In this document: piece after piece, positions 14,001 to 53,285 of the stretch
Layout: the number at the start of each line of letters is the position of its first letter
How positions within the stretch are numbered: the first letter of the stretch is position 1
Assembly: GCA_014871385.1 (NCBI GenBank)
Contig: CM026423.1
Coordinates: forward strand, 3,848,408 to 3,912,407
Length of the DNA: 64,000 bases
DNA from: Ceratodon purpureus
Lineage: Eukaryota; Streptophyta; Bryopsida; Pseudoditrichales; Ditrichaceae
Direction: 5' to 3'
Notes under the pieces: generated by a model
Seen by the model: the letters and a program-made list of their open reading frames with translations, nothing else
The model's database searches: none
Told to the model about the DNA's origin: nothing
Position numbers and translations under genes: made by a program

Positions 14001-14965
14001 ACCAGATCGAAACGATAACTATTAGCGGAAGGGTGAGCTTTTCTTCACTTGACCTGACTTGTGCTTGTCAATATCGTTGAGTTTTGTAGGTGGGTGTTAA
14101 CGACACGTGAGTTTTGTAGGTGGGTGTTATCCGATTTTATCTTTAAATAACCGGGTTTATTGGTGCATTGGTGCAGACATCGGCGTTTGTCCCCAACATT
14201 CAGAAATACAGTGGACCTGAGCTGAAAGGAGCCAAGACCAAATCAATCGCCGAAGGCGAATTACCACATGAAGGTGAAGAAATGGGAGAACCCGACTCTG
14301 ATGAGATTGTAGCAGCCGGGGAGATGGTTGTCGAGAAAGCTGGCACTAGCGAGACTCCTAAGCGTGGCAGGGGACGACCTCCAAAGGCAAAAGGAGACAG
14401 TGCAGTGAAGTCTTCGCCAGCTGCACCTTCACCAGCTGCAGCCACCGACAATGCGAGTCCTGCTGGAGCAAAGAAGCGGGGTAGACCTCCAAAGCTCAAA
14501 ACCGCCCCTGCTTCTGCTGAAGATAAGACAGATGTGGAGGAGACTCAAAAGGATAGTCCCAGTGAACCCAAACGAAGAGGCCGCCCTCCTAAGGCAAAAG
14601 CTGATGCTTCCAAGGAAGCAGTCAGTAAGGCCTTGGAAGATGATGAAGACGATGACGCCGCTGAAGTGGAAGACATAGCTGATGTTGACACAGCGCTTGC
14701 CAGTCCTGTAACGCCCAAACGCAGGGGCAGACCCCCAAAGGCCAAACCCGAAGCCACAGAAGAGTTAGAGATTACGAAAAAGGCCAAAGTAGGGAAAGAC
14801 GAGGAAGGGACAGCTAGTCCAGCTGGTTCCGCAGAACCAAAGCGTAGAGGTCGCCCTCCAAAAGCAAAACCCGAGACAGACGAAGGAGAAGTTGCGGAAG
14901 CTGCTGCGGCTACACCAACCCCAAAGAAAAGAGGTCGCCCTCCGAAGGCAAAATCTGCCAGCTGA
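11009..14965 (+). CDS. FPG1: FPG/MutM DNA glycosylase with six AT-hooks
   Basis: A bifunctional glycosylase/AP lyase that removes oxidised purines in base-excision repair (family knowledge). Exons: 11009-11237, 11670-11721, 12054-12111, 12268-12336, 12593-12718, 12997-13047, 13379-13456, 13755-13854, 13998-14032, 14177-14965; all phases agree and give 528 residues. Visible hallmarks are MPELPEVE with catalytic Pro2 and Glu3, beta-clamp Lys60 in RRGKHM, FGMSGAI, and the helix-two-turn-helix GIGNWVGDEVLYQ. There is no Cys4 zinc finger, as in other plant FPGs, and GNQIETITISGR takes the zincless-finger position. The tail (about residues 330-525) holds six RGRPPK AT-hooks separated by acidic Ala/Ser/Glu-rich linkers. 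Arabidopsis FPG1 is about 390 residues, so this tail is unusually long and regular. Confidence 0.93.
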
Positions 14966-15932: not shown

Positions 15933-18900
15933 ATGACGCAATTCGAGGAGAATGAAGAATACGGAGATGAGCACCCCGACGACATCGTGATGTGCGTGTG
16001 CGTGGACTACGACGAGAACGGTGACGTTGTAAACTCAGGAGGATATGGCACTAACGTGCCAACCATGCCCATCGGTGACCCTCCTGTGACTTCGTGCTAT
16101 CTCCTGATCAAGTTTCTCGATGACGCCCTCAACATGATGAGGTGAAATCCGTAACATTCCTGGATAGTAGACTCTATTTCAGATGGTTGGCACCATGACC
16201 AGCTTGCTAACTGTTACAAAGGCACACATTGGATCTCGTTCAAATTTGGTGCATAGCTAGATCTATGATGCCCTCTGCCTGCTTGAAAGATGAACATCTT
16301 TCCATCTGAAAGAGTTCTCATTCTCAATCAAATTCTGGCTTTCAGGTCACTTCAGTATGTCACAGTTGGACTTATGAGCAAGCTGGACGACATGCAGGAG
16401 GATTTTCTATATGAGGTACGTACTCCCTAAAGTAATTACACAACATGCTCTGGGCGGACATTATAATAATTGGTCTGCATGTTTGAAGTCCAATTCAGGT
16501 CTACTTCCACTCTTGAGCCCAGTTGTTCAGCCTGCCATACTTTCAGTTCATCTCAAATATTTTCAATCCGTCTTAGTTGCATGGAAGAGCTGATTTCTTG
16601 AGGAATTCTCTGACTGCAGGATTTGTTTGAGAAACTCCGATGGCACGCCAATTGCTACCATGAGTGGCAGGAGGCAGATACGTCCAAGTTTCTGGAGTCC
16701 CAGCAAGCAGTGATCGAATCCGCCAGGACCCTCTGCATCTTCTTCATGGATGTAAAGAGTAAATCTTTGCCACTTTAATTGTATCACCTATACTGCTACC
16801 CACACTCGATCAGATCATACTTCCCACCTTCGCAGATTACTCGCTACTGTTAGCCAGCAATCCATATATACCTTAACCTCAGTTGCAACATCACAGAATA
16901 TGCAACATCACAAATTCTTGACCCGTATCCACAACTGAGCCCCACAGAATGAACCTTTAAACATATTTGCATACTTGCAGAATGTGTTGGATCAGAATAC
17001 TTCAACTAAGGACATGTTGCTGGATTTGTAGTTCTCGAGGATGCACACAATTGGATCCCGGATCTTCCCCGTGTATGTCCCTCCGACGGGGAGGAAATTC
17101 TTCCTGGGCGGCAACTGGAAGTGCAACGGATCCAAGGACTCCATTAAGAAGCTCGTGGACGAGCTCAATGCAGCAGACTTCGACGACGACGTCGACATTG
17201 TGGTGTGCCCGTCGTATGTGTACCTGACGCAAGTGGTGGGCTCGCTCACGAAGCGCATCGATGTGGCCGCGCAGAACTGCTGGCGGGGCGAGGGCGGGGC
17301 GTTCACGGGGGAGATCAGCGCGGACCAGCTGGTCGACGTGGGCGTGAAGTGGGTGGTGGCGGGTCACGCCGAGCGCCGCCACATCCTGGGCGAGACGAAC
17401 ACAGTGGTGGCGCTCAAGTGCGCGTACGCGATCTCCTTGGGCTTGAACGTCATCATCGCCGTGGGCGAGACGCTGTTTGAGCGTGAACAGAATCTCACGA
17501 ACGACGTCATCTTCGAGCAGCTGCAATCACTGACGAGCAAGATCGCGGACTGGACGAAAGTGGTGCTGGCGTATGAGCCCGTGTGGGCAATCGGGACCGG
17601 CAAGGCGTGCAGTCCCGAGGAAGCGCAGGAGGTGCATCTCGCGATCCGGGAGTGGATGAAGAAGAATACTTCGGAGGAGGTGTCGTCCTCCTTGAGAATC
17701 ATTTATGGTGCGTCGGTGTCGTCGTCGACTTGCAACGACCTTGCCAAGCAGCATGACATCGATGGGTTCTTCGTTGGCGGCGCTGCGTGGGATGGGAAGG
17801 AGTTCGCTGCCATCGCCAATTCGGTCAAAGTGAAGAAGGTTAACTCCCTCAGCTTAACTCCCGCTAGCTGCAGCATTGATTACATGTCCTCGTCTGCCTT
17901 GCTCTACGCACATGCCTTGGACATGGGCTATCTCGAAAATGGATCGTTAATGAATTTGCGTGTTCCCTTTCAATCGCTTGCTATGTGGACGTTTGCAAGC
18001 ATGGTGATGTTTCATTGGGTTGCGGGTGTGAGCCAGAATATAGATTTCGCAGTGGAGCAGATGATGAGCTTGGGGGAAGAGCCGGAGCCGTCATGGCCTG
18101 AGTTTCTGGAATCACTCCTCAAGGTAAGATAGTTTGGATGGAGAGTACAAATATGGAGTCTCGAATGCACCAGGAAGTGCAACTTAGGAGAGAATTAATT
18201 GCTGGATGTGAATTTTTACTTCCGGTTTGTTAGCAGAAACTTGCGGGTTATTCCAGATGGATAATTTGTATCTGCGTTGAGCATGAACTGGAAATGTTTG
18301 TGCATTTTGGAAGGGTGGCAGCTGCGAGCGCTAGCAATGAAGCGATTCTCGACATCGTTGTTCGAGGAAGAATGCCTCGAGGCTTACCGTGCGAACTTAG
18401 AGGGTAAATATGACAATGTACGCATTCGAAAATGCACTAGAAATGAAATTTATGCAATAAATGTGTGGTTATCTGAATGGACTTCGCATACACTGTTTTT
18501 TCACGTTTCACCCGTTTACTTCAGGAGGCTTATTTCATTTGAAGGGTACGAAAGTCTTTGGAAATAATGGCTAAAGTGAGGCTTCACATAATCGCAGGCA
18601 AAGGCTATAAACGTAGAAACAACAGCACAACTCGAGGCAGCGAGGGCTCAACGCGAAGCGGAGTACAATGCGTACTTAGACGATGAGCTCCAAATCGTTC
18701 GTAAGAGCTTCTAGCTACACATAATCCATAGTTTACCACTACCACAATTCGCATGATTTCAATGAGAGACCTAATGTATGGTTAATACTGTTAACTGTTA
18801 ACGAGGGTATGTTCAACTTTTAACCATATGACATACCATATGGTTGATGCTGTTGAGGGTAATGGTGTCGGTCGTTGTATTTTATGAACACACCATGTGG

Positions 18901-20982
18901 TCAATACAGTTGACAGAAGAATTGATGTATTTCGTGTAATGAAGTAAAGAAACCTATTATACCAAATATATGAACCGAAGGCATGATGAGATAGGGGGCA
19001 TGATATGTGTGAAGGGGACGGTGAACAGTCCACTTTGCAAGCAGAGCTTGCGGAAAAGCAAATGCTGCAGAACTTCAAAGCTCACGAGGACCAAGAATTT
19101 GACATCTTTAATGCTGAAGTAAGACTGTGTAAACTTCTCAATGAAACTGCTGATGAATCATCTATTGTAGTATTAAACACTGGCTATCATAAATTTCGTG
19201 CTGTAGAGGAACCTGAACCTACGTTTTCTGTCAGGGCTCAAACAATTCATGTTTTGCCCCACGTGGTTTGCTTGGTAACGTTGTATTTCTCTGTGAATAT
19301 CGTGACAAGGAAGGGTCTGTCAGCAAACCTGGACAGTTATCTCTACGGGCTAAACAATGTGAAGATGATGTTAACGCTGTTGCTGTTGTGACTGGCAGTA
19401 TTCAGTACTTGAAGAGGAGAATGTACAAATGGGAGAGAAGCTCTTAGATATGCAAGTAATGTTTTCATCCGAGATAAGAACTGAACTACAGTCACATCTT
19501 TGCGTACGCATTTGTCACTTTGCATTGCTTCGATGCCTGCCCACTGCTCGAGCTTGGCATTGTTGTGCAAATTATATAAACTTGGAATTATCGCCTCAGA
19601 TTTCTCTGCTATTAGTTGTCATGTCATAATCCAAATACTAATCCTGCGGCTAACGGATCTGCCTCCAAGAATTCTGTGGTACTATGAACAATTCATTACC
19701 TTTCCTCACGATTCTCATATATCAAATGTAGAGACTGTTTTCATGCTCTGGTTTCTGTGGGTTATCGGATGGAAATAGAACCTCGACCGCACTTGGGAGC
19801 TCCAACAAAGGGGTAAGAATGGGCAGAGCGCAGAAGAAGTGAGTGACCTAATGTGGGTGTTCGAACACGACACCAAGGAAAAAACTACAGATCTCGCAGA
19901 AAAAAGGGTATGCCACAACGACTGCCCCAAGTACCAATATTCTGTTCAAATTGCTCCACCTTTTTGAAGTGAACTTGGAGAATGCACTAAACACTGCAGC
20001 AAGACAGATGAGCATGCTAAATTATTAACTCGCTGTCTCATTTGAACAGGAAGAAAATGATAAACTCGGAGCACACCTGAACAAGATGATCATGTACTTT
20101 GTCCAAAAAGATAGAGAGGTGTGTTTCTACCATCAATCTTGCTCAACCATATCACTAAATACCACCTTTCCAACTAACGGACCTTTCACTCAACATATAA
20201 ATCTACCACCGCTTTGGTAATATATAGTTACAAGATCTAGACCAATTTTTCCAACACAACGCACTTTGAATTTTACCAACTCGAGTGGAAATATCAGGTC
20301 TCTAATCTTTGTTGTCTGACTAGGCTCGAGAAGGATACTAATCAGTACTGTTCACATGGCAAATTGGTGTGTAGGCAGCACGCGTAGCAGAAGAGAAACT
20401 TCGAGCGGCATATGCGATCTGTGTATGACTGCCCACCCACTAAAATACATAGCTATAGTAGCAAGCAATGAGTTACATACGAGCACCGCTCTATTTCAGA
20501 TCATATCTGCTTGCAATAAACGTACAGATGGAACTCTATCTAAGCTCTGGTACAGTATTCGACGTAACGTTGAATTTTCGGTTGACATCCAAAAGATCAA
20601 GGTATCTTCTAAAGGAAACTATAAACTGCTTGCTTTCAGGACAAGAAGCGGAAAAAATGGCTGCCCTATTACGCAGCATGTCGCATTCAACGGTACTGGA
20701 AACGATATCTCTGGAGGAAAAGTGGAGGAGTTGGAGAACCGACGCCAGTACGAAAATAATCTGAACCTGTAACTTTGCGTGTGATTATTCTACATTTGCA
20801 TTTCACGTTTGCCGGTTGAAAGGGTACAAGTTTAATTGGGTACGATTAAGCCCCAAACCAAAGTAAAGAAGATTGAGTGCACAAATTGTGTAAGAAAGAA
20901 TTGACGATGAGTTGTTTGGTTACAGGCTAAAAAGGGCAAAGGAGGTAAAGGAGGCAAAAAAGGCAAAAAGGGGAAAAAATAG
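15933..20982 (+). CDS. DRC10: DRC10/IQCD-like axonemal protein, interrupted by TPI
   Basis: A likely subunit of the nexin-dynein regulatory complex that coordinates dynein arms in motile cilia, here sperm flagella. Readable exons: 15933-16141, 16346-16415, 16620-16751, 16981 to about 17027, about 18037-18123, 18322-18417, 18598-18700, 19045-19118, 19399-19455, 19779-19907, 20050-20118, 20375-20422, 20640-20747, 20926-20982; phases agree outside the 17.0-18.0 kb gap. Without the TPI segment the product is about 430 residues, near human IQCD (449). FLESLLKLRALAMKRF parallels FIDSLIELRGFLFEKL of IQCD (from memory). The rest is coiled coil, an IQ motif (RIQRYWKRYLWRK), and a Lys/Gly tail in a separate last exon (AKKGKGGKGGKKGKKGKK), as IQCD also has. 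DRC9/IQCG is the alternative. Exon 16981 runs into TAG at 17029 if not spliced at GT 17028. Confidence 0.72.
17041..18132 (+). CDS. TPI: Intronless triosephosphate isomerase frame inside DRC10-like gene
   Basis: The first 266 codons (17041-17838) encode a complete TPI, the glycolytic enzyme interconverting DHAP and glyceraldehyde-3-phosphate. Catalytic residues are present: Lys27 in GGNWKCN, His109 in GHAERR (usually GHSERR) and Glu179 in AYEPVWAIGTGK; phosphate-binding IIYGAS (usually GGS) and FFVGGA follow. It looks like the plant cytosolic form, ending VKVKK, but is strongly diverged and GC-rich. Plant TPI genes normally have many introns; this has none, so it is probably a retrocopy. It has no stop of its own: the frame continues through 17839-18036 into DRC10-like coding sequence and ends at 18132 inside the next intron. 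A GT at 17839 and an AG at 18036 could join TPI in frame to the DRC10-like exon. It starts 9 bp after the TAG of exon 16981. Confidence 0.8.
   Translation: MHTIGSRIFPVYVPPTGRKFFLGGNWKCNGSKDSIKKLVDELNAADFDDDVDIVVCPSYVYLTQVVGSLTKRIDVAAQNCWRGEGGAFTGEISADQLVDVGVKWVVAGHAERRHILGETNTVVALKCAYAISLGLNVIIAVGETLFEREQNLTNDVIFEQLQSLTSKIADWTKVVLAYEPVWAIGTGKACSPEEAQEVHLAIREWMKKNTSEEVSSSLRIIYGASVSSSTCNDLAKQHDIDGFFVGGAAWDGKEFAAIANSVKVKKVNSLSLTPASCSIDYMSSSALLYAHALDMGYLENGSLMNLRVPFQSLAMWTFASMVMFHWVAGVSQNIDFAVEQMMSLGEEPEPSWPEFLESLLKVR
18776..18925. repeat. Intronic short repeats and palindrome
   Basis: Three related words, near TATGGTTAATACTGTTAA, lie about 60 bp apart at 18777, 18838 and 18896 in a DRC10-like intron. 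An ACCATATG...CATATGGT palindrome overlaps the second. It may be a small transposon remnant. Confidence 0.45.
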
Positions 20983-39782: not shown

Positions 39783-40137
39783 AAAACAAACTACAAAAAC
39801 AAACAAAATGGCCTCGGCCTACCAGCCTCGCCACAAAACAAAACAAAACAAAAACCAAAATAAACACAAAACGCTATTGCTAATAAAAAACACTAAACTC
39901 AAAAGTCAAAAATATCTATAGAAACTCTAAAATCATATAGAACACTAACAAACATTAAACACATCACCTTAACAAATTCAAAAATCACGAAACAATCATC
40001 ATCACTTATTTATCTAAAAAACCTACAAAACAATGTGAATAATATAAAAAATCAAATAAAGAAACTAATAAAACAAACCATAGAAACCAACAAATCGGCC
40101 TCGGCCTACCGGCCTCGCCACAAAACAAAAAACAAAA
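39783..40137 (+). repeat. Duplicated segment at the ORF2 N-terminal border
   Basis: The GC-rich word GGCCTCGGCCTACC(A/G)GCC, flanked on both sides by the same A-rich words, occurs at about 39809-39830 and again at 40095-40116, 286 bp apart. Translated, both give TNK-ASAY-PRHKTK. The second copy is in the ORF2 frame and the first lies in a separate short frame, so part of the ORF2 start region was duplicated. Confidence 0.75.
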
Positions 40138-43100
40138 ATCAACACATATACAACTGGTACACCTCTACAACCACTAGCCATATACCAAAACACACCGAAC
40201 CATCACACTTTCTACCAGAACAAACAATAAAAATAATACCCGCTTTACCCAATCTGTTTACTACAATTAAATTTACAACTATAAAATACTACAAAACAAA
40301 TAAGAAAAAACCCAAATTACTTTACCACTCTGGTTACTACTTTATCAACAAACTAACATTACTTCAATGTGGAGATATAGAAACCAATCCTGGACCAATG
40401 CCCAACATACTACGTACACACCCCACAGATCATAAAAAACGTGCTAGAAAATACTTTATCTCCAGTACAATAAAACTCCAACCAGATTATCAACACATAG
40501 CAATAACATTTGCTCCTATCCTACATACAGACCATCCACTACACCACCAAGCAACTATCTCATTTCCATCCCTTCACCAATACATACAAAAACAAAATCA
40601 CTCACCACCCCCCCATATACTATACGCCTTAATCGTTACCATAAACCCATCAATAGATAAATGTAATAATATCTTATCAAACCCCCGAGTATACCACTTC
40701 AACGATATATGGACAAATACAATACTCATCCGACTCTCCAATCTCAACAACCCTCCAGAACGACACATCGCTACAGACCATCCGTATACCAAACTCATCA
40801 AAAATATCCAAGAATTAATACTTCCTAAAAAATCAATACACAAAGAATTATACAAATTCATCCATAGTCAAGAAACTCCTCCCACACATGACACACTTCA
40901 AAGAAAATTCCCATTTCTCCCAAACAAACTAATAACAGAATCACTCCGATGTCTTGAAAACATAAATGAATACTCACATCCACCTCCACTCCCAAACATC
41001 CCCACCCCAGTACCAAGAATAAATCCTACTACAAACCTTGAAACTAACATAATCACTTGGAATGCATCATCACTTAATACAGCCTTACCAAACCTACAAA
41101 GTCTCATAAACAACTCCATCGGAAATACAGCAATTATAAATATTCAAGAAACAAAACTCACAGCGACAAAATCTACAAAATACATACAAAATTTATTTCC
41201 TGAATACAAACTCATCTTCAACAACACTCATGCCCTAACTAGATGCATACAACAAAGAATGCCCTACACACCCGGAAGAGGAGGATTACTCACACTCATT
41301 CACAACAAATATGCATTCCCCGGTAACATTAATAAAATTCCCACACCAGCAAATATATCCCCATATCTAGAAATAATAAAAATAAACAATCATCCACTTA
41401 TACCTTGGCTAATTATTCACATGTATATGTGCACACATCTAGAAGATATACGACTCATTCCCCACCTCCAAACTACAATCACTAACCAAATTGTTGCACA
41501 TCCAAACCACACATACATCTTATGTGGCGACTTTAACCGTGACATTGCATTCATTGGAAGACAAAATCACAACAATAACACACCACCACAAGATGAAGAC
41601 ATCCAATGGAAAAACTTCACCACATCTCTTAACTTCGAATACATTCCAACAAACATTAACTTCTCCAGACAAGGCGGCTATAACTACACATCAACCAGCC
41701 TTATAGATGGCTTCTACATAAACTCAACAAATAACAACAGATTTACTTCCACCACAAATATAAATATGAATTTAAACTCAGACCACTACCCAGTTACCTT
41801 ACATATCCCACAAAACACATTACTAGCTAGGCCCCCACCGCCAGAAACGACCACTGAAATTAGAATACTTAATCCAATCCCAGAAGAAAACTTAGAAAAA
41901 TTTAACATAGAATTCTTTGAAAGAAACTCTATAAAAATAAATGAATTAACTTTATTATTAGAAAACCGCGACCACCTCACACAAGACCAATGGGAAACAG
42001 CCTGTGCATCCCTAGATGAAATTATAAACAAAATTTCAGAAATTATTGAAAACACCTGTAAAGCACCACCACTACCAAATCTCACTAATAGAACCGCACA
42101 ACAAGGTGGTTTTTTACCCCGAAAACTTGCCAAAGAATGGAAAAAATACCTTGCTACATACCATCTCATCAGAAAAACTATATACATCGCAAAACACAAC
42201 CCACAATGGCAAACACACCCTATCATGAATGACATACGTAATCACCAAAATGTACAAATTCCCCATCCTCCAACAATAGATACCATACCAAACGAATGGA
42301 TTGACGTCATAGCTGCTATCGCAAAAACTGCCAACAAAGATGCTAGAAAAATTACAACAAAATATACTAAAGATTGTATTCACAAAGCAGTCTCAAAATA
42401 CCGCCAAATGTATGAAAAAAGCCCCAAGAAAATAAATAGAAAAGTCTTCAAAAACTCTGAAACTTCACCCCTAGACTCCATCATAGACAGACAAAACAAC
42501 ATTCTAACCAGCCCAGAAGATATTGCACAAGAAATACACATTCAACAATCTATTAGTAACCGTCCAACAGTTCCCACATGCCACTATCAAAATATTCATC
42601 AACCACATTGCACATGCAGTGTCAGACAATACCCTTGGCACGACCTAGAAGGATTCATAATTGACCAACGCGGTGAACCGGAAATTCCTCTACACACATA
42701 CTTCGACCAAGAAACCTACGATTTTTGCCTTAAAAACCTAGGAAATAACAAAGCCCCAGGCCCTGACAAAATCCCTAACTCAATCTTGAAAAACATGCTT
42801 CCACGATTCCACAAATTACTCTTCTTATTCTTCAAACACTGTTACAAACAAAAACAAATCTCAGCGTCATGGAAAACTAGCCTAACAGTTTTATTATATA
42901 AAAAAGGTGACCCATTTCAATTAACCAACCATAGACCTATTGCATTAGCAAACACAATCTATAAACTTTTTACAAGTACATTAACTTCTATCCTCTCCGC
43001 CTATGGTGAAAAACACCAAATTTTACACGACAGCCAAGAAGGATTTAGAGCAGAACGAGGAACTTCTAAACAACTTCAAATCCTCATTGCAACACTAGAA

Positions 43101-46100
43101 GATGCGAGATTCACAAACCAAGACATATACATCCTATATATAGACTTCAAAAATGTCTTCGGCTCTATCGATCATGCAAGACTTCTAGCCATAATGAAAG
43201 ACCTTGGATACCCTTCTGATGCCATAAATCTAGTTGGAAACATCTACTCACAATCCTCCACCATATACTCTGGAGAACACTTTGGCAAAACTCTACCGAT
43301 TCCCATTCAAAGAGGAACAATACAAGGAGATACACTCAGCCCCTATTTATTTATAATATTTTTAGAACCTCTTCTGAGATGGCTACAACAAGGAGACAAT
43401 GGTTACACATTTGGCACCTCCAAAGTTACAATCTCCTCCGCAGCATACGCTGATGATCTTGCAGCAATTGCCAACAAACTAAAATCTCTACAAACTCAAC
43501 TAAATAAATTAGATAAATTTTGTGAATGGGCAGGAATGGACCTCGGAATCCCTAAATGTGCAGTGACAGGATGCCCCAACAAATCCAAAATGAACCCAAT
43601 TGCATTCAAAGCCCAAATACAAGCCACGAACATAAACTTTAGAAACTAACCGTTACCAGTCCTAGACCAACACGAACCATACACATATCTTGGCATAAAC
43701 TTGGCCCCATCTCTAAAATGGGGAACACAAATAAATACCACCACCGCTAAAGTCGTCAAACAATGTCAAGCCCTGGTATCTTGCCCAGCCACTATGAAAC
43801 AAAAAATCAGTATGGCGGATACAGTGATACGCGCCGGAATAGCATACAGCTTTTACGTAGTACCGTATTCCATACCAGCCATTAAAAAACTAGACAAAAA
43901 GATCATAGCGCTCCACAAAACAATATGTGGATTACCAAAATGCACCTCTAATGTCGCCACACAACTCCCACACAACCTATTTGGTATAGAAGCATTCTCA
44001 CTAAAAAATGCATACTTAAGATGCATTGGAGAACAACTACAAAATGCCCTAAACGATAAATGTAGACTTGGTAAAATATATTATGGATTGATACAATTTA
44101 TACTTGCAAGATTTGGAGGCTCCGAAGAAATAGACCGCATTAAATACCAACACTGCGTGAGATCACCCATCACTAGGACATTATTTCTACTCAAACATGA
44201 GGCCGGTGTCCACCTTAAAAGTACAATAAATTGCTTTCTATTAAATCCATCTCAACTAGAAACGACATGGATGAGAAAAGCACAAAACCTACATGGCCTT
44301 AATCCCAACACATCTTTCAAATTACTACAAAAACTACTATCACATAATATAATAAAACTAGAACAAATAACCATGCCTAATGGCACCACCCTAATGAACC
44401 CAGATGACTTTAAAATGTACCACTGCAATCCCACTAAACTCATCAAAAGTGCTCTAAACCTTGCAAACCAACTATTTTGCTACCCCTCTTGCCACCAAGG
44501 ATGCCACCCCCCATGCCGGTTTCATCACCTCCCAAGAACTCTAAAAAATGACTACATTATATTAAACCACAATATCATCCCCCTACAATTCACCCCCCCC
44601 TATAAATCCACCTAACCCTCCTATCCCCGAACTCCCCCTTCCTCCCAAAAACATCCTTAAAAACCCCCGACAATTCCCCATTCACGAAATACTAGATCAC
44701 GAACATCGTAAAATCAAGGATAAATATTGGATTATCAAAAAAGACACCATATACTTATGCCAATGGAACACGCCAAACAACAATTCATACCACAAATGGC
44801 AAACTCAAAGAGAATTATTCCCCTGGAACGACCCCCATACATGTCATCACAACACTGAAATACTTACCCAATACTATACAAAACAACAACATAAGCACTG
44901 TTCAAACACCATCAAAAAATACTTCTCTATCACACAAGCAAAAGATACAAGGTATGTTATTCCAGCCACAACCATTCCATTAGCTCACATCTCTATTAAT
45001 GAATGTAACCCAGAAAGCGACATTCAAACAAATACAAACACAATACAAACTAACTTAAACATAGCACATATATATGAAGAAAATGGCCGACACCTCATTA
45101 CCATTCCAAAAACAAGATTAATATGGCTATGGAAACAATATCAAAATGCGAAACATACCCCACATGACCTAGAATCCCCAACCCAATCTTTTGAAACTGA
45201 AATTGCATGGCTATACCAAAGATAAATACCGCATCCCAAAAAATGACCCACTAAAATGTGCCCAATACACCATACCAACTCAAATACTAGACTTTCTCAT
45301 TGAAACATTCAAAATTCAAACATCATACTTCTCATCCCCAGTTACATGCCCCACACAATTTAGCCAATTCTACTCACCATTTTCCCGAGATATTATTTTT
45401 GGTTCCCTAGGGAAAGCATTTGACCATAAATGGAAAGGTTTTGGCTACGCCCATCCCCATAATGAAACAGACTTACAACAAGCCATCCATTGGGCCCGTC
45501 TTGCAGCTAAAAACGATCCAAACACAATGACTATAATCATATCCCTAGACACTAACTGGTATCAAAATTTCAATCCATACATTGGCCCCTTTCCAGATAC
45601 ACACATCATTGCTCACTTTGCTGCAGATACCATCACATATATAGAACCCACAATACCTCCCAAAGTCAACACTGAAAGAAAAGAAGTGTCCACCCTACAA
45701 ATACTTTGCATTCATCACCAAAACAACAATATCGGTAACCTAGAACAAATGAATCAACTCAACCCCATCATAAATAATCTAAAAATACCACAGATTTACA
45801 CACAAATTGCTCCTCCTACCCCCTTAAATACCCCGGTTAAACCGAGTAAGAAATGGTCCAAATTAGACTACCCTAATACACTAAACAATAGCCCCACACA
45901 TATCCCCCCAATCCCAAACTACCATACAAACCTGCCACTAAAATTCGAAGCCCAACTCAGTTATTACACCGATGGCTCCTTCATACCTCCAAAAGAAATT
46001 GGCCATAATAATGAATGGATGAGGGAAAAAGCTGGATATGGCATCTACAGCCCTAAAGGAATTAACATCCCCAAAAGATTCCATGGACACCAAAACATTC

Positions 46101-52125: not shown

Positions 52126-52590
52126 CAACCTCCTAAGTATCACATAGTTATTGCTCATTTCACAATCTCTTTCCAAATTGAAGGTGAGAGGCCATTGACA
52201 ATATTTTAGAGTGAAACTTCTGTGCTACAAAGGGAGGTCTTTTTTGAATCTTGAAGGTAGTTATATTTATTACTTTTGTAAAATAATCTTCGAGGTAGGA
52301 GACGAGTGTAGGAAAGTTTTTGAAGTTGCTACTTATTTAGTGGAAAATGACTTAAACAAGCATGACTTTTTATCTAGAGGTTTTTCTAAGAAAAAGATTG
52401 TATTTAGTCAAAAATCTTGTGATATCCTATGTCTACCAAAAATTTCAAAAAATTATAGGTTTTAGAAAAAGTACTTTTAATTTGAATTTTGGATTGAATG
52501 ATGATATGGACTACAAATTCATGAAGCAAAATATACATGTTTAACTGATGGTACACGGACTATTTATACTTCATACAACAAGTACAATTT
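52126..52590. other. AT-rich spacer
   Basis: No gene supported. Two short overlapping frames (52211-52544) are AT-rich and unconvincing. Confidence 0.4.
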
Positions 52591-53285
52591 GCAATGTTGA
52601 CATGGGCTATAAATTCATCATGCAAAATGTACTTATATGCAAAATTTATATAGGCTATTTAAACTTGACACAAATGATATACCGTTTACAATGCTGACAT
52701 GTTGGGCTACAAATTCATGATGCTTAATATGTACATATTTACAATTTGATATTGGCCATTTAAACTTGATACAACATATACTGCTTGCATTGCTGACAGG
52801 GCTACACATTCATGATGCCAAATGTACCTATTTGCAGTGCTTGCATTGCTGACAGTGCTACAGATTTATGATGTCAAATGTACATATTTGCAGTGCAGGT
52901 ATGGGCTATTTAAACTTGACACAACATGTACTGCTTGCATTGCTGACAGTGCTACAGATTCATGATGCCAAATGTACCTATTTGCAGTGCTGGATTGGCT
53001 ATTCAAATTTGACACAACATGTACTGCTTGCATTGGTGCCAGGGCTACAGATTCATGATGTAAAATGTACCTGTTTGCATGCAATGTTGACAGGCTCAAA
53101 TTTGACACAACATGTACTGCTTGCATTGGTGCCAGGGCTACAGATTCATGATGTAAAATGTACCTGTTTGCATGCAATGTTGACAGGCTCAGCGATTCAT
53201 GATGCAAAATGTACCTGTTTGCATGCAATGTTGACAGGCTCAGCTACATATTCATAATGCAAAATGTACTTGTTTGCATGTTGGT
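52591..53285. repeat. Satellite-like tandem array, about 90-130 bp units
   Basis: About seven units are built on TTCATGATG-AAAATGTACC-TGTTTGCATG and ACACAACATGTACTGCTTGC. Units at 53004-53096 and 53097-53189 are almost identical with a 93-bp period, while outer units are more diverged and some are truncated. This pattern suits unequal crossing-over, with the youngest copies near 53.0-53.2 kb. Repetitive frames are open on both strands as a by-product. Confidence 0.85.

Follow-up and report, generated by a model that had tools for sequence, protein, structure and literature searches.

An intronic triosephosphate isomerase frame in a DRC10-like gene of Ceratodon purpureus and its possible use as a symmetric cassette exon

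Glycolytic enzymes are already known at flagellar structures (PMC3916887, PMC8175508). In mouse, sperm-specific forms of the triosephosphate isomerase (TPI) TPI1 are fixed to a structure of the flagellum, the fibrous sheath, in an altered protein form; they are reported to arise from alternative start codons of a single TPI gene, without being fused to any axonemal protein (PMC3916887). Likewise, enolase and further enzymes of glycolysis are tied to an axonemal complex, C1b/CPC1 of the central apparatus; in Tetrahymena they are attached only loosely or transiently, and they are reported as associated, unfused subunits, both the complex and the enzymes being other than in TPI-DRC10 (PMC8175508). 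TPI as a domain of a larger eukaryotic protein occurs in the TPI-GAPDH fusions of stramenopiles, cercozoans and an apusozoan, which are reported to join it to a glycolytic partner and to bear mitochondrial targeting signals (PMC3527533), whereas the partner of TPI at the present locus would be a structural protein of the axoneme.

In Tetrahymena, the N-DRC linker contains a coiled-coil dimer of DRC9 and DRC10, which interact with DRC3 and adjoin CCDC96/113; the pair has been proposed to act as a hub in the regulation of dyneins g and e, and both proteins are predicted to bind calmodulin (PMC10504270). The solved DRC10 chains 8j07_10 and 9fqr_Oj comprise 444 and 449 residues, which we take to leave no space for a TPI domain. 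In the open-licence literature we found no report of a TPI-DRC10 fusion, nothing on DRC10 in bryophytes or on TPI in Physcomitrium antheridia, and only unrelated work on Ceratodon together with TPI.

The DRC10-like host gene and the TPI frame in its intron

The window, i.e. the whole stretch of 64,000 nucleotides analysed here (C3:3848408-3912407), belongs to a genome of 362.5 Mb in 151 contigs. Its host gene extends from 15933 to 20982 on the + strand and comprises 13 exons, which together encode 412 residues, with an IQ-like motif and a Lys/Gly tail at the C-terminal end. E1 (15933-16141) starts with the ATG at 15933, ends in phase 2 and aligns with the first exon of a paralogue on C1; E2 (16346-16415) and E3 (16620-16751) both end in phase 0, and most of E3 is present in a decayed duplicate, too. 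E5 (18037-18123, phase 0-0) shares its length and its first residue, Asn, with the paralogue. It is followed by E6 (18322-18417, donor AAT/GTACGC), E7 (18598-18700), E8 (19045-19118), the 5' limit of which is less certain, E9 (19399-19455), E10 (19779-19907), a stretch matched on C1 by DNA search, E11 (20050-20118), E12 (20375-20422), E13 (20640-20747), which carries the IQ-like motif, and E14 (20926-20982) with the Lys/Gly-rich tail and the stop. For both DRC10 genes the exons were delimited by eye, partly from splice consensus.

The paralogue lies on the minus strand of C1 and its exon plan matches that of the window gene from E3 onward, with identical lengths for E5 (87 nt), E6 (96 nt), E7 (103 nt), E9 (57 nt), E10 (129 nt), E11 (69 nt) and E12 (48 nt) and differing lengths for E3, E8, E13 and E14. 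The two proteins are 41% identical if most of the acidic insertion of the paralogue is left out. This insertion, long and Glu/Lys-rich, follows the start of the second exon and is absent from the window gene. The identification as DRC10 rests on the pair, since a search of the PDB with the window protein alone gave no match at E<=1, whereas a two-sequence profile made from the window protein and the paralogue matched 8j07_10 (E=0.00053) and 9fqr_Oj (E=0.0012), the only DRC10 chains among the matches listed, over the coiled-coil part, the C-terminal IQ region and the Lys/Gly tail. The Pfam IQ scores near the C-terminus, 14.3 bits for the window protein and 17.6 for the paralogue, are both below the cut-off of 20.3. 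By the profile match the exons on both sides of the TPI belong to a DRC10-like gene, in agreement with the original prediction, which had placed a TPI on the same strand between coding exons of such a gene.

Elsewhere in the window, Rfam and tRNA scans listed nothing. A 272-codon open frame on the + strand (14147-14965) contains many Arg-Gly-Arg-Pro-Pro-Lys repeats and thereby resembles an AT-hook protein; the two strands differ markedly in composition over 40001-46000, where the GC skew per 2-kb step is -0.32 to -0.55 and the AT skew 0.26 to 0.31, and 52497-53280 is taken up by tandem arrays that have words in common and periods of 96, 93 or 51 bases.

The intron between E3 and E5 (16752-18036, + strand, 1285 nt) holds the TPI. 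The phase-0 end of E3 and the phase-0 start of E5 with Asn are common to the window gene and the paralogue, the corresponding phase-0 intron of which contains no TPI, the sole TPI found on C1 being 24 Mb away. Because these boundaries are identical in the paralogue, the TPI sits inside what is there a plain intron; with two copies to compare, either gain by the window gene or loss by the paralogue may account for the difference. The ORF listing gives an open frame on the + strand from 17032 to a TAG at 18130-18132, so the TPI frame does read into the next DRC10-like exon, as had been predicted. Within this frame the 269-residue part encoded by 17032-17838 matches the TIM family (Pfam PF00121, E=1.8e-81) with its residues 24-264, the alignment spanning profile positions 2-244 of 245 and thus the full-length domain. 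Among solved proteins its best relatives by sequence were 7skj and 4ohq, named in the structure search as chloroplast TPIs from Cuscuta and Arabidopsis, respectively, and Foldseek matched the window TPI to 4ohq_A (1.6e-35, 59% identity). By homology the frame is that of a complete, chloroplast-type triosephosphate isomerase.

The original prediction had also credited it with all catalytic residues. Asn11, Lys13, His95 and Glu165, numbered by the usual TPI scheme, are kept in four of four cases, but their neighbours Ser96, Cys126 and loop-7 Gly210, which do not vary among the 10 other sequences of the comparison, have all been replaced by Ala. We take these three to be part of the conserved second shell of TPI, not strict requirements for membership. 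Altogether the window TPI is altered at 14 of 89 columns that are otherwise invariant, compared to 0-4 in each of the ten other sequences, and it retains the loop-3 motif Ala-Phe-Thr-Gly-Glu. AlphaFold2, run with five sequences, predicted a TPI barrel with 10-residue pLDDT means of 54-93 over residues 21-270, at least 63 of the 96 final residues lying in stretches with pLDDT <50.

Origin and constraint of the TPI

Four further intact TPIs without introns are present in the genome, on C1, C5, C8 and C10. They are homologous single-exon frames, 51-61% identical to the window TPI and, unlike it, have stops of their own, and none of them is known to lie within another gene; the TPIs on C9 and C12 contain introns. 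The earlier proposal of a retrocopy is not borne out, and we do not accept it as proven because the four others are intronless, too: the absence of introns may have been inherited, and copying at the DNA level is as possible as retrocopying. DNA homology to the C5 TPI extends over 17087-17840 and ends in the Lys-Lys-Val codons that form the putative donor; the C5 TPI continues for three more codons after Lys-Lys and then stops, the C10 TPI for four, and in the window this stop is gone. In a tree the branch of the window TPI has a length of 0.57 vs 0.10 for C5 and C10, the support for its grouping with these two being 51 only.

Two of the other TPIs have peculiarities of their own. The C8 TPI (C8:6998312-6999124, minus strand) is extended at the N-terminus, contains an insertion of 19 residues and ends in an acidic tail, and its DNA is 87% identical to the window TPI over the first 82 matching bases and 66% over the remainder. 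The C12 TPI (C12:8392900-8393400) gave no clean fit around the fifth to seventh fitted exons, which may reflect an altered gene or a limit of the fit.

Some 136 kb away from the window TPI, at C3:4002442-4002970 and on the minus strand, there is a decayed duplicate of part of the locus. We traced it from a weak protein match at C3:4002822; it was absent from the listings of a DNA search with the 5120-bp gene and of a TPI protein search at E<=10, and a search with its own DNA returned only itself. One BLAST block covers most of E3 together with 21 nt of the preceding intron, three further blocks cover TPI, and a loose alignment suggests additional intron similarity to the window locus. The copy is damaged by stops, a net 5-nt insertion and deletions of ~280 and ~26 nt, and global alignment broke down beyond the first deletion, so that the BLAST blocks were used. 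Within the surrounding 9.9 kb (C3:3998000-4007900) no other DRC10 exons were found, save one match with E=0.29. The derived states Gly-His-Ala-Glu, in which Ala follows His, Gly-Ala-Ser and Ala-Ala-Trp are common to the duplicate and the window TPI, and a DNA-level copy of the window locus, made once the TPI was present, is therefore the most likely origin of the duplicate. Five codons past a matched Ser-Val-Lys the duplicate carries a stop, which may be secondary in a broken copy or the trace of a TPI that once ended by itself.

The duplicate was taken as neutral control for the rate of the window TPI. With changes polarised by sites at which C5 and C10 agree, the window TPI accounted for 4 and the duplicate for 26 (189 sites, p=6e-5), a difference since duplication that indicates purifying selection on the window copy. 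The counts were 4 and 17 if C1 agreed as well (143 sites, p=0.007), 2 and 16 with C8 added (119 sites, p=0.001), and 10 and 35 if C5 alone was used (230 sites, p=0.0002). Restricting the comparison to two ungapped blocks gave 4 and 13 for C5 and C10 (104 sites, p=0.049), 4 and 10 with C1 added (79 sites, p=0.18), 2 and 9 with C8 added (66 sites, p=0.065), and 10 and 18 for C5 alone (133 sites, p=0.18). The window TPI is slower in eight of eight counts, the strength of the effect hinging on the gapped block; the data point to purifying selection, less firmly from the ungapped blocks alone.

Codon positions give a related picture. Where C5 and C10 agree, the window TPI differs at 59 of 227 first, 33 of 235 second and 61 of 146 third positions (0.26, 0.14 and 0.42). 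If C1 must agree, too, the numbers are 38/176, 22/196 and 16/66, and with both C1 and C8 they are 29/157, 15/175 and 6/45, so that the excess at third positions vanishes with stricter outgroups while second positions stay lowest. The C5 counterpart, counted at sites where C10 equals the window, has 6/174, 7/209 and 32/117 and is under much stronger constraint. In a simulation of drift the C5 TPI, changed at 30% of its sites, acquired 7.4 stops on average, and 1 of 2000 runs was stop-free. The codon-position rates, the 14 altered invariant columns and these simulations together indicate that the constraint on the window TPI is real, but relaxed or redirected.

These results bear on the reading that the TPI is a relic, always spliced out, that lost its function only recently. 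The fast branch, the altered columns and the missing stop would suit such a copy; the frame, however, is intact in spite of the number of stops expected from drift, the duplicate has changed far more, and the rates differ between codon positions, so that we regard a relic as very improbable.

Splice sites and possible products

We propose that 17032-17838 (+ strand, 807 nt, 269 codons, phase 0-0) is a cassette exon with TTTGTAG as acceptor and AAG/GTTAAC as donor. Splice sites were scored against 35 reference introns (7 from C12, 8 from C9, 11 from the window gene and 9 from the paralogue). Two doubtful C12 introns were left out (7 of 9 used), all eight C9 introns were kept, the window gene contributed 11 of 12 with the tested intron excluded, and of the paralogue the E6-E7 intron and the unresolved ones before E3 were omitted; the scores lean towards both DRC10 genes, because the exon limits were partly chosen by splice consensus. 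Both sites of the proposed exon are weak: the acceptor at 17032 scored 2.8 bits, above 8 of the 35 reference acceptors, and the donor after 17838 scored 3.7 bits, above 5 of 35 and equal to the E3 donor of the gene (3.7 bits, 5/35). The E5 acceptor (18037) reached 3.6 bits, above 9 of 35. The GT at 17839-17840 and the AG at 18035-18036, which had been predicted to permit joining of TPI to E5 in frame, are present and agree in frame, and the frame is open over 17032-18123 whether or not 17839-18036 is spliced. That this segment of 198 nt, readable as an intron or as a 66-residue linker, is open is by itself weak evidence, because 422 of 5000 dinucleotide shuffles were open as well. With the cassette included the protein has 681 residues, or 747 if the segment is retained, and with the TPI skipped it has 412; each form has a terminal stop only.

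Upstream of the TPI, the original prediction had described an exon that stops 9 bp ahead of it. A TAG at 17029-17031 and an ATG at 17041 are indeed nine bases apart, but the TAG may instead be the splice acceptor of the TPI exon, which would permit a full DRC10-TPI-DRC10 fusion, a reading absent from that prediction. No counterpart of the putative exon that ends at this TAG (16981-17031) was seen when the paralogue was read by eye. The acceptor of this exon at 16981 is the best of the intron (9.4 bits, above 34 of 35), and since it leads to a stop, after residue 153, the splice scores count against a simple cassette model. Use of this acceptor might make the region a poison exon or part of a bicistronic message, the E3 frame ending at 17029-17031 with subsequent decay or a restart at ATG 17041; it would leave introns of 229 and 198 nt, both inside the reference range of 100-344 nt. 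Such a function, however, needs no intact TPI, in conflict with the slower change relative to the duplicate, and given also that the paralogue seems to lack the exon we consider it improbable. Tandem acceptors at 16981 and 17032, used in different cells, would fit both uses. Two mini-introns that would restore the frame, of 12 and 66 nt with a donor after 17027 and acceptors before 17040 and 17094, were rejected: the donor scored -2.1 bits, below 35 of 35, the acceptors scored 0.1 and -1.1, and the shortest reference intron has 100 nt.

Translation might also begin at ATG 17041, which has an A at -3. An internal promoter in 16752-17040 could then yield a TPI-DRC10C fusion in which TPI is joined to E5 and the following exons and thereby to the coiled coil and IQ region of DRC10, the protein being 541 residues long or 607 with the linker. 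The product is in frame with one terminal stop, and both the TAG and the weak acceptor at 17032 would be irrelevant to it; the residues ahead of the barrel core, on the other hand, are unlike those of the C1, C5 and C10 TPIs, and AlphaFold2 gave residues 1-19 pLDDT <50. We regard this route as unlikely. A separate TPI gene nested in the intron would start at the same ATG and run unspliced to the TAG at 18130-18132, adding a 97-residue tail, with DRC10 being made by skipping the entire 1285-nt intron. The frame is open throughout, the G+C content of 17839-18036 (0.49) is higher than in the gene's 11 other introns (0.37-0.42), and the stop near the TPI end of the duplicate may mark where a separate TPI formerly ended. 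E5, however, would have to serve both as coding tail and as DRC10 exon, the C1, C5 and C10 TPIs end soon past the barrel with only C8 being tailed, and the strong donor after E5 (18123; 10.2 bits, above 34 of 35) would go unused, so that a nested gene appears unlikely as well.

The layout of TPI within DRC10 is real and more than chance, and the TPI is old. The fusion or nested gene that had been suggested originally is a sensible reading, the latter without its old stop, as the TPI is intronic, is in frame with E5 and bears marks of selection. Taking both fusion models jointly, we judge a translated link between TPI and DRC10 to be probable, at somewhat better than even chance. Our preferred single explanation, that a symmetric cassette exon gives rise, when included, to a DRC10-TPI-DRC10 protein of the sperm axoneme, is put forward tentatively, with a likelihood not far short of even.

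A possible TPI domain in the sperm axoneme

The cassette model would have begun with the entry, long ago, of a plastid-type intronless TPI copy into the phase-0 E3-E5 intron. The inserted TPI would then have been exonised into the symmetric exon 17032-17838, the TAG ahead of it serving as acceptor and its C-terminal Lys-Lys-Val codons as AAG/GT donor. Skipping of the cassette would leave ordinary DRC10, and its inclusion would place the TPI domain after DRC10 residue 137, ahead of the coiled coil, at a point where the DRC10 alignment passes through a Ser-Asn-Pro stretch. The N- and C-termini of TIM barrels neighbour each other, and insertion of TPI as a domain is possible for this reason. TPI is active as a dimer; as loop 3 is kept, we propose that a DRC10-borne TPI might recruit soluble TPI as its second subunit.

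The DRC9/DRC10 arm would bring TPI into the nexin-dynein regulatory complex of sperm, and we propose that the domain would lie near dynein regulation. Interconversion of triose phosphates would then occur at the linker that regulates dynein. Given the altered second-shell residues, catalysis may have changed, or the domain may double as sensor or spacer. That inclusion and skipping of the TPI exon yield two forms of DRC10, one of which supplies an axonemal glycolytic step or a triose-phosphate sensor acting on dynein regulation, is possible though rather unlikely. If true, a protein in which enzyme and axoneme are linked by a switchable exon would provide local energy supply or metabolic control of beating by a direct route, and the gene would be an example of an entire enzyme frame exonised into a structural gene.
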